Assembly: GCF_001889025.1 (NCBI RefSeq)
Contig: NZ_CP018154.1
Span: 1,912,501 to 1,976,500 of the forward strand
From: Sphingorhabdus lutea
GTDB lineage: Bacteria; Pseudomonadota; Alphaproteobacteria; Sphingomonadales; Sphingomonadaceae
DNA: 64,000 nucleotides
Reading direction: 5' to 3'
In this document: positions 3,455-5,094 of the stretch, one piece after another
Layout: every line of letters begins with the position of its first letter
Position numbering within the stretch: position 1 is the first letter of the stretch
The notes under the pieces: model-generated
The model's input: the letters and a program-made list of their open reading frames with translations, nothing else
Databases searched by the model: none
What the model was told of the DNA's origin: nothing
Translations under genes and position numbers: made by a program

Positions 3455-4081
3455 CTACCCGTCCAATAAAGACGATAAATCGACCCTGGCGTGGGATAGG
3501 ATTTCAACATTTCTATCCTCTCCGCTAGGGTCTTTTTGCATCAAAATTTCATCACGTTCACGCAATAAATTGGCGATGATATTTTGTGAAAGCCGTAACA
3601 TGGCGGTCAGCCAGATGTTCACCAAAGGATCACCATTTAAACCGCGCAGGTCAAATAATGCCATTTTTGAGATAATATTTTCTGCGGGATAGAGGCTTTC
3701 ATCTGTCACCCATCTATTCGTGGTGAACCATTTTATGGGAAGTCCATTATAATCCATTGATAAAGCAGCAATATGCACCACTTCGGCGCGCTTTCCCGTT
3801 ATTTCAGGTGCAGCGATCAAGGGGTTAAAATCACTATCCATTGATTTTTTATCAATGAAGAAATGGAAATGACCATGCTCCTCGCCATCTCTGTCTTCTG
3901 GTGGATGGCAATGATAGAAAAACCGGCTGCCGGCGACGCCATTGACCACATCAATTTCGGGATAATGATTCCAAATTAAAACATCGTCCGGCACGATTCG
4001 GTGCATCAATGGCATAGCACTTTCATGCATGGCAACGCTGCTATCCATCAAAAATTCTGCTGCCTTTTGCTGCTCCATCAT
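3455..4081 (-). CDS. His-rich DUF6969-like protein, third gene of the Cys-rich peptide operon
   Basis: A predicted soluble protein of 208 residues with no signal peptide. From memory it resembles the family annotated DUF6969 (function unknown); the segment FTTNRWVTDE and the C-terminal WLTAMLRLSQ...NLLRERDEIL are the parts I recognise. A dense histidine cluster (H57, H59, H69, H71, H73 and H103 from this start) looks like a metal site. The open frame continues upstream into the CAANP repeat in another frame, which is an artefact. I chose the ATG at 4081; ATG at 4114 is possible but lies inside a 7-bp hairpin and lacks a ribosome site. It is the last gene after the YHS and Cys-rich genes, 68 bases behind the latter. 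A role as enzyme or chaperone acting on the Cys-rich peptide is inference. Confidence 0.7.
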   Translation of the reverse strand: MMEQQKAAEFLMDSSVAMHESAMPLMHRIVPDDVLIWNHYPEIDVVNGVAGSRFFYHCHPPEDRDGEEHGHFHFFIDKKSMDSDFNPLIAAPEITGKRAEVVHIAALSMDYNGLPIKWFTTNRWVTDESLYPAENIISKMALFDLRGLNGDPLVNIWLTAMLRLSQNIIANLLRERDEILMQKDPSGEDRNVEILSHARVDLSSLLDG

Positions 4082-4103
4082 ATTCTTAATCCCGCCATTA
4101 TTA

Positions 4104-4124
4104 CCTCCCCCCATTTTGGGGAGG
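4104..4124 (-). other. Perfect 7-bp GC-rich hairpin between the Cys-rich gene and its partner
   Basis: CCTCCCC (4104-4110) pairs exactly with GGGGAGG (4118-4124) across a 7-base loop. No T-run follows on the minus strand, so it is not a standard terminator. It lies between the stop of the Cys-rich gene (4149) and the start of the DUF6969-like gene, and could protect the upstream mRNA or reduce expression of the downstream gene. It may also be a dispersed palindromic repeat; no second copy is seen in this window. Confidence 0.5.
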
Positions 4125-4148
4125 GAGGCAATTTGATGTTCCAATTGC

Positions 4149-4445
4149 TTATGCGCGTGGGCTGCATTTCGCAGCGCATGGATTTGCTGCACAGGGATTA
4201 GCCGCGCATGGGTTGGCTGCACAGGGATTAGCCGCGCAGGGATTGGCCGCGCATTTATGCTTTTTTGCCATTTTGGCCTTTTTAACTTTTTTTGCCTTTT
4301 TGGGGGCACATGGACGCGCCGAACAATATGAAGATGAACGGCTCGGCCCACATGGCGCGGTTGCGCCAGCAACGCCGCCAATACTGGCCATGGCCAAACC
4401 ACCGGTAATTGATAATAATTTTGCTAATTTCATTGCATTTGACAT
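4149..4445 (-). CDS. Secreted Cys-rich peptide with tandem CAANP repeats
   Basis: A 98-residue precursor-like protein. Residues 1-28 form a signal peptide (basic start, hydrophobic LLSITGGLAMASIGG, small residues before cleavage). The mature part has Cys at 32, 41 and 46, a strongly basic stretch (49-64, mostly Lys/Ala), and then Cys at 65, 70, 75, 80, 85, 90 and 94, the first six spaced exactly five residues apart by AANP. The start at 4445 is set by AGGAG seven bases upstream; the longer frame to 4484 has no ribosome site. It follows the YHS gene by 48 bases. Ten cysteines, a basic linker and export suggest a periplasmic metal-binding or modified peptide, analogous to bufferin-type or HvfA-type metallophores, but no MNIO (DUF692) enzyme is encoded nearby. 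Function unproven. Confidence 0.8.
   Translation of the reverse strand: MSNAMKLAKLLSITGGLAMASIGGVAGATAPCGPSRSSSYCSARPCAPKKAKKVKKAKMAKKHKCAANPCAANPCAANPCAANPCAANPCAAKCSPRA
4176..4253 (-). repeat. Five imperfect 15-bp tandem repeats encoding CAANP units
   Basis: The codons for residues 65-90 of the Cys-rich protein form tandem 15-base units that differ at a few third positions and at one or two wobble changes. Because 15 is a multiple of three, unit gain or loss keeps the frame, so copy number could vary between strains. The same regularity keeps other frames open and creates the false long ORFs on both strands here. Confidence 0.8.
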
Positions 4446-4493
4446 ATATTTACTCCTTCTTACTTCCCGCCCGAAATTGGGCAAAACTTTCCC

Positions 4494-4979
4494 TTATGCG
4501 CCGAAAGCGGCATCATCTGGAATTTCTTTCCATTCAGCATTTGCTTTTTCAATGAAGCCGGAAATATCCTTCAGCCACATATTTTGAACTTGCTTATTGA
4601 AATTTAAATATAATTTGCCGTCGACAATTTTATATACGGTCGGATCACCGGGTGCGATTGAACCACGGGCCATTGCCCATGCGCAATGGCCGCCATATTG
4701 CGGCAGAAATTGCGCGGGGTCGGCGGAAAAGGCATCGGCATTTTTCTGGCTGGAAAAATGATAGGCGACGCCTTCATGCTTTACCATGATGGTCGCATTG
4801 CCCTTTACCGGAACGCCATCGCCCATGAAATAACTAACCACATCATATCCGCCAACGCCGATATTTTCGCCTTCAACGCCGACATAAACGGGCTTGGCCT
4901 CTGCATGGGTTAAAAATGCTATGGGCGATGCAGATACAGCCACTGCCGCCAATAATAATGAAAATTGTTTCTTAAACAT
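4494..4979 (-). CDS. Secreted YHS-domain protein, first gene of the Cys-rich peptide operon
   Basis: A 161-residue protein with a signal peptide (residues 1-29, ending AEA) and one YHS domain: GGYDVVSYF, then YHFSSQKNADAF and FLPQYGGHCAWAMARG, then YLNFNKQVQ near the end. YHS domains occur in metal-related proteins such as copper P-type ATPases and some periplasmic proteins; this one keeps a single Cys (C99) in the conserved GGHCAW motif. The start is set by AAGGA six bases before the ATG at 4979. It sits first in the unit with the CAANP-repeat peptide and the His-rich protein, under the sigma-F-like promoter at 5069-5094. A periplasmic metal-linked role is inferred from family and context. 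Confidence 0.85.
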   Translation of the reverse strand: MFKKQFSLLLAAVAVSASPIAFLTHAEAKPVYVGVEGENIGVGGYDVVSYFMGDGVPVKGNATIMVKHEGVAYHFSSQKNADAFSADPAQFLPQYGGHCAWAMARGSIAPGDPTVYKIVDGKLYLNFNKQVQNMWLKDISGFIEKANAEWKEIPDDAAFGA

Positions 4980-5068
4980 AAAAAATCCTTTGAAAAGCTT
5001 GCCGGATAACATCGCCCTGTTGGTAACAGGTGTAGGGGGAACGCAATGTCACCCAGCATGCAATGTAA

Positions 5069-5094
5069 TTCAGGCAAAGCCCTTCAAAGGTTAC
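5069..5094 (-). promoter_or_regulatory. Candidate ECF sigma-F-type promoter for the YHS/Cys-rich operon
   Basis: On the minus strand GTAACC (5094-5089) is followed by exactly 16 bases and TGAA (5072-5069). The Caulobacter sigma-F consensus that I recall is GTAACC-N16-CGAA, so this is one mismatch away with the correct spacing. That sigma factor governs heavy-metal stress genes, including small Cys-containing exported proteins. The -10 element is about 90 bases upstream of the YHS start codon, leaving a leader with a small hairpin (CCTGTT-GGT-AACAGG, 5016-5030). Confidence 0.55.

Follow-up and report, generated by a model that had tools for sequence, protein, structure and literature searches.

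What do three neighbouring genes of Sphingorhabdus lutea (NZ_CP018154.1), encoding an exported YHS-domain protein, an exported Cys-repeat peptide and a DUF6969 protein, do together? An earlier note on the window, by which we mean the whole stretch of 64,000 nucleotides that was analysed, had read them as one operon working in parallel to the bufferin systems with another partner protein. All three genes lie on the minus strand, in the order motif, YHS, Cys peptide, DUF6969, from 5094 to 3455:

5069..5094, minus strand: sigma-F-type promoter motif GTAACC-N16-TGAA (Caulobacter consensus GTAACC-N16-CGAA)
4494..4979, minus strand: exported YHS-domain protein, 161 aa, of the YHS (seleno)protein subfamily (signal peptide by inspection)
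4149..4445, minus strand: exported Cys-repeat peptide, 98 aa, 10 Cys (signal peptide by inspection)
4362..4445, minus strand: leader/signal peptide of the Cys-repeat peptide, residues 1-28, with conserved GGLA (cleavage site by inspection)
4170..4253, minus strand: five CAANP repeats and a final CAA, residues 65-92 of the Cys-repeat peptide
3455..4081, minus strand: DUF6969 protein (PF22308), 208 aa (no signal peptide by inspection)
3863..3913, minus strand: conserved His cluster HxH...EHGHFH, residues 57-73 of DUF6969 (H57, H59, H71, and H73 invariant in the alignment)

The strand, the gene positions and the first intergenic spacer (48 bases) were as claimed in the earlier note; the second spacer, given there as 68 bases, is 67 bases on recounting. 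The motif was located ahead of the operon as described, and GTAACC-N16-[CT]GAA has no other occurrence in the 64 kb. Recounting placed the cysteines of the peptide at positions 32, 41, 46, 65, 70, 75, 80, 85, 90, and 94, which agrees with the reported ten, six of them (65-90) spaced exactly five apart. When the part after residue 28 was shuffled, an equally long regular run of Cys arose in 5 of 100,000 shuffles; the even spacing is therefore not a matter of chance. The codon pattern for CAANPCAA, searched as an exact pattern, is unique to this site within the 2.53-Mb genome. The peptide matched no Pfam or NCBIfam family above the cut-off.

The product of the third gene, previously called DUF6969-like with a histidine cluster, matched PF22308 at 197.9 bits (cut-off 27) over profile positions 2-201 of 201, with the conserved residues present. 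DUF6969 is its sole Pfam match at E <= 1, in agreement with the suggestion that the partner protein here is a different one from MNIO or DUF2063. We counted residues over 151 aligned DUF6969 rows, two duplicate pairs included. H57, H59, H71, and H73 occur in all 145 rows that cover them, and H103 and R176 in all 149; H39 (142/145), E68 (141/145), and D177 (147/149) are mostly kept. In an AlphaFold model, H57, H71, H73, and H103 lie within three strands and H59 just after one. Judging from this strand spacing, the invariant histidines could face one side of the protein, and the five together look like a metal site. Two AlphaFold models (mean pLDDT 75 and 78, 5 sequences each) matched no known fold, so catalysis by DUF6969 is without structural support. 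We found no recorded function for DUF6969, and literature searches returned no paper on DUF6969 or on NPC-repeat proteins.

Of 397 genomes from the window's family, 44 contain DUF6969, with 45 genes in all. Each of the 45 is directly preceded, on the same strand, by a short peptide with the same kind of leader. Forty-three of these peptides carry 5 to 22 Cys, while the peptide at locus L010 has three and that at L103 has one. Most leader peptides were collected with a script that demanded GG, and those of L108, L109, and L111 by reading ORF lists. The neighbourhood that the earlier note envisaged for the DUF6969 family was therefore found as far as Cys-rich leader peptides are concerned, and mostly not for YHS proteins: a YHS gene lies near DUF6969 at 5/45 family loci (stretches of 3.1 to 11.6 kb), and upstream of it on the same strand at three (the window, L095, and L097). 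The three-gene unit stands in the window and fails as a general core. Because YHS is so seldom near, the core pair is the peptide and DUF6969, and we regard these two as very probably dependent on each other in function.

Leaders were compared in 53 peptides, from 44 of the 45 family loci (L096 was missed by the script) and from nine second-site loci described below. The window's leader reads L-A-K-L-L-S-I-T-G-G-L-A; the family form is like L-x-x-M-L-x-V-A-G-G-L-A. The GG was demanded by the filter. An A at GG+5, a position that the filter did not demand, was found in 51 of the 53 peptides, and a V at GG-2 in 48. The core repeats vary by genus (CAANP, NPCSAKA, CCAAEG, CAACAAG, CGAC, and others), whereas the leader varies far less. 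At the same eight loci, leader identity averages 54% for the peptides versus 36% for the signal peptides of the YHS proteins, a comparison that favours the peptides somewhat, since they were gathered by leader. The conserved leader fits recognition by a partner protein, without proving it. A conserved leader joined to a variable core, a criterion for RiPP precursors, is what we found, with the leader at all 45 family loci. Close to the mature start, PCGP is kept in 9/53 peptides, the window's included; at L103 the sole remaining Cys lies in PCGPS, and leader, DUF6969, and promoter motif are all kept. By a loose lipobox pattern, 37 of the 53 peptides are lipoprotein-like.

The YHS protein had been taken as secreted and connected with metal handling. 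Its secretion (by inspection) and its YHS domain (31.5 bits, cut-off 30.3) stood; the link to metal handling needs correction. The protein scored 141.8 against NF041384, the YHS (seleno)protein subfamily (curated cut-off 70), and is the genome's only match to that model. Its single Cys sits in GGHCAWA, at a position where relatives presumably carry selenocysteine; a YHS protein is listed among prokaryotic selenoproteins in one review (PMC9312934, consulted in part). The subfamily and the single Cys suggest a redox role rather than metal handling. While the score places the protein within the NF041384 subfamily, its setting is different, as it lies here beside a leader/Cys-repeat stretch and in locus L260 is fused to one.

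Leader peptides also occur away from DUF6969. Profile A4, made from 19 peptides taken from beside DUF6969 and limited in sensitivity, matched 38 of the 397 family genomes (which are related), and 37 of these belong to the 44 DUF6969-positive genomes. The lone match without DUF6969 (G648) was rejected, as it lies in an unrelated-looking ORF of another kind. Nine genomes, all DUF6969-positive, have an A4 match away from DUF6969, at loci from four genera; the roughly 4.2 kb fetched around each of these nine loci contained no DUF6969 match. The same stretches hold one or two YHS genes at seven of the nine loci, with the order YHS-peptide-YHS at three. In L260:1593-2213, the leader and Cys repeats are fused to a YHS domain, and a further leader peptide and an unfused YHS gene adjoin. 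Because the second-site peptides are found only in DUF6969-positive genomes and have YHS genes nearby, the leader peptide, the YHS protein, and DUF6969 appear to be modules of a single system, with DUF6969 kept where the peptide is kept. A single DUF6969 may serve several peptide loci.

Across the class, DUF6969 was found in 90 of 385 genomes, about a quarter of the sample, and we surveyed 100 stretches, 98 of them distinct, with lengths of 3 to 14 kb. A filter flagged Cys-repeat ORFs in 33 stretches and in none of the other 67; the 33 include one spurious frame (L075) and several pieces of larger NPC-cytochrome proteins. Under a looser rule, 45 stretches contained a Cys-repeat ORF and 55 contained none. 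Automated neighbour clustering gave NPC-repeat proteins beside DUF6969 in 29/100 stretches, 20 of them with a CxxCH motif, and a representative NPC-repeat CxxCH protein matched cytochrome P460 (PF16694). Further neighbours are an exported FGE-sulfatase-like protein (29/100, mostly just upstream; PF03781 in one representative), a c-type cytochrome (28/100), and DUF2336 (19/100). Among L141-L203 there are fusions of NPC-repeat domains with cytochrome P460, whose genes often lie divergent to those for DUF6969 and an exported FGE-sulfatase-like protein.

We built profile A2 from eight NPC peptides, all from DUF6969 neighbourhoods and one from the window's family. It matched 54 of the 385 class genomes: 49 of the 90 with DUF6969 versus 5 of the 295 without (odds ratio 69, Fisher p = 3.7e-31; the genomes are related and the counts not independent). 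With this association and the 45/45 family genes, the conserved linkage of DUF6969 with Cys-repeat peptides was upheld. In 34 of the 49 genomes the nearest A2 match lies <=3 kb from DUF6969. The sensitivity of A2 is limited, and it misses the window's own peptide. The five class genomes with an A2 match in which no DUF6969 was found are G391, G221, G439, G105, and G187; since other genomes from the genus of G391 are DUF6969-positive, assembly gaps are possible.

In a sample of the phylum, 11 of 329 genomes contained DUF6969, four of them outside the class, and six stretches were inspected. In L272 (outside the class), an NPC repeat fused to a SoxA/TsdA-type cytochrome lies directly upstream of DUF6969. 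Directly downstream of DUF6969 in L277, a locus from the class, is an NPC-type gene whose P460 match stays below the Pfam cut-off. L273, outside the class and at a contig end, had nothing relevant around DUF6969. In L274 and L275 (outside the class) and L276 (in the class), DUF6969 lies between genes for a sulphur transporter (PF04143, from a Pfam run on L274 and L276; L275 is alike by eye) and a rhodanese, and no Cys-repeat peptide is evident at these three loci.

The Caulobacter sigma-F consensus is GTAACC-N16-CGAA (PMC3511200, consulted in part), from which the window's motif differs in its -10 element, TGAA. Upstream of the family loci, GTAAC[CT]-N16-[CT]GAA occurs on the coding strand at 16/45, with CGAA at 15 and TGAA in the window, and is missing at 29/45; one match inside the L074 peptide gene was left out of the 16. 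As controls, the other strand gave four further matches and the reversed motif one, in 220,820 bases. The motif begins 58-76 bases before the peptide start in 12 of 41 upstream regions checked, and roughly 100 to 200 bases before it at L108, L109, and L111. At the class loci the motif is not enriched (6/100; four matches for the reversed control). With spacers of 15-17 and YGAA, it is not enriched in the window's genome either (20 versus 87 reversed).

That genome contains one NrsF match and one MNIO match. The motif also precedes both its DUF2282-MNIO-DUF2063 operon and its DoxX-sigma factor-NrsF operon, which agrees with the sigma-F link drawn in the earlier note. Because the motif is common to these operons, the window operon is likely part of the same regulon; the lack of enrichment genome-wide and at the class loci, and the 29 family loci without the motif, speak against this. 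As in the sigma-F/NrsF heavy-metal regulon of Caulobacter, the single NrsF locus goes with a sigma gene and the same motif; in contrast, the table of that regulon in PMC3511200 contains no DUF6969 or Cys-repeat gene. Elsewhere in the window's genome, GTAACC-N16-TGAA also lies before a gene whose product matches DoxX weakly, at 20.2 bits against a cut-off of 23.6 (L116, G000:C1:241499-241524), and TGAA may therefore be an accepted -10 there. By eye, the motif-less loci L010, L060-L072, L012, L013, L006, and L051-L054 have similar upstream blocks with CTTGC, which suggests that another regulator may act at these loci.

The closest known systems are the bufferins (Buf1, DUF2282) with MNIO and DUF2063. 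There too, a small Sec-exported Cys peptide is encoded before its cytoplasmic partner, the genome's own bufferin operon carries the same sigma-F-type motif, and domain-fused variants are known (main text of PMC12452194). The window peptide shares the bufferin trait of an exported Cys-containing precursor (signal peptide by inspection). However, its partner is neither MNIO nor DUF2063, and none of the three genes encodes DoxX. The peptide had no DUF2282 match at E <= 1, the genome's true DUF2282 gene being elsewhere, and no MNIO gene adjoins it; the genome's only MNIO match (C1:1099114-1099944) is about 0.8 Mb away. Its repeats are unlike the Buf1, Buf2, EGKCG, and CxxxxC types described in the main text of PMC12452194, which does not mention YHS, NPC, or DUF6969. 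With DUF2282, an adjacent MNIO, and DUF2063 absent, the system would be bufferin-like in its working and is not a bufferin system. MNIO was also sought in three other complete DUF6969-positive genomes. Two of them (G089 and G087) have it; G074, 100% complete, gave no MNIO match, though the leader peptide, DUF6969, and the CGAA motif are present. A peptide-DUF6969 pair without MNIO in one of three genomes agrees with the proposal of a system parallel to MNIO.

Our preferred reading, which we put forward tentatively, is that DUF6969, cytoplasmic and probably metal-dependent, recognises the leader of the Sec-exported Cys peptide and, ahead of export, acts on the cysteines of that peptide; once matured, the peptide would be a thiol or metal buffer of the envelope, with the YHS protein as its periplasmic thiol-redox partner. 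Judging from the promoter motif, sigma-F would switch the operon on under envelope metal or thiol stress. DUF6969 would bind the leader in the cytoplasm and act on the cysteines, most likely by modifying them, otherwise by protecting or loading them. Sec would export the peptide, given the signal peptide seen by inspection, and the peptide would buffer metal or thiol species in the envelope. The YHS protein may swap electrons or thiols with it, as the operon, the second loci, and the fusion suggest.

For covalent Cys modification as the mode of DUF6969 action, we see a little under an even chance. Still more tentatively, DUF6969 may represent a new class of metal-dependent Cys-modifying enzymes that add a group to leader-guided, Sec-exported Cys-repeat proteins. 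Its substrates would range from small lipoprotein-like peptides to NPC domains fused to YHS, cytochrome P460, or SoxA/TsdA-type cytochromes, with several loci served in trans. Some loci argue against the preferred reading: L103 keeps leader, DUF6969, and motif with a single Cys, the L010 peptide has three, and Cys-repeat ORFs are lacking both in the L274-L276 subfamily, where no such peptide is evident, and in 67 or 55 of the 100 class stretches, depending on the rule.

The same linkage data would be expected if DUF6969 were a non-catalytic escort that binds the leader and the nascent peptide and keeps the thiols reduced or metal-loaded until Sec export. The lack of an enzyme fold match agrees with this, and a similar masking role has been speculated for MNIO partner proteins (main text of PMC12452194). 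However, the five invariant histidines and R176 (149/149), together with the mostly kept H39, E68, and D177, resemble a metal centre and not a plain binding surface, and the single-Cys peptide of L103 would need little escorting; we consider an escort rather unlikely. A role in sulphur chemistry is a serious rival because of the sulphur transport, rhodanese, and SoxA/TsdA-type cytochrome neighbours, even though we judge it unlikely. The targets of DUF6969 would then be sulphur species such as persulphide, thiosulphate, or a small thiol, and in the envelope the Cys-repeat proteins would serve as carriers or buffers of sulphane sulphur. The Sulf_transp (PF04143) and rhodanese genes at L274-L276, a Sulf_transp-type neighbour in 8/100 class stretches (one representative Pfam-confirmed), the fusion of an NPC repeat with a SoxA/TsdA-type cytochrome in L272, and the single Cys of the window's YHS protein all point this way. 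In contrast, sulphur-metabolism neighbours are a minority, and the conserved leader suggests direct contact between DUF6969 and the peptide.

It appears very unlikely that DUF6969 is a bystander and that the MNIO of this genome modifies the peptide in trans, as it would an unusual bufferin. The genome does have one MNIO operon with the sigma-F motif, and MNIO occurs in two of the three other DUF6969-positive genomes tested; however, among the four genomes in which it was sought, G074 combines leader peptide, DUF6969, and CGAA motif with no MNIO match. Least credible of all is inherited synteny without functional coupling. The DUF6969 proteins of the family do form one clade (44/44 tips, support 0.998, in a tree from which 3/151 sequences were left out for gaps), so the 45 loci are not independent. 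However, the association recurs across the class in other gene orders, on other strands, and with peptides of other types, and in one case beyond the class; moreover, all peptides found at a distance from DUF6969 come from genomes that contain it.

The recurrence of the pair suggests a system, as yet undescribed, that makes or handles peptides rich in thiols. According to a 2025 survey (PMC12452194, consulted in part), bufferins were the only RiPP precursors with Sec signal peptides for which experiments had demonstrated use of Sec in the natural host. Should DUF6969, an unrelated protein, play a comparable part, the same problem would have been solved a second time and independently, in 90/385 of the class genomes sampled. 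DUF6969, the NPC-repeat proteins, and the exported YHS proteins would then all gain a function at once.

Two further genes recur on the same strand upstream of DUF6969 in the window's family: a 3TM holin-like gene about 1 kb upstream in 21/45 loci, and an endolysin-like gene about 1.5 kb upstream in 15/45. The loci with these genes include L009-L013, L060-L072, L096-L100, L112, and L113, where they lie about 1-1.6 kb before DUF6969. These neighbours possibly reflect a release route or only synteny. One holin-like representative matched GTA_holin_3TM, and one endolysin-like representative matched Glyco_hydro_108.
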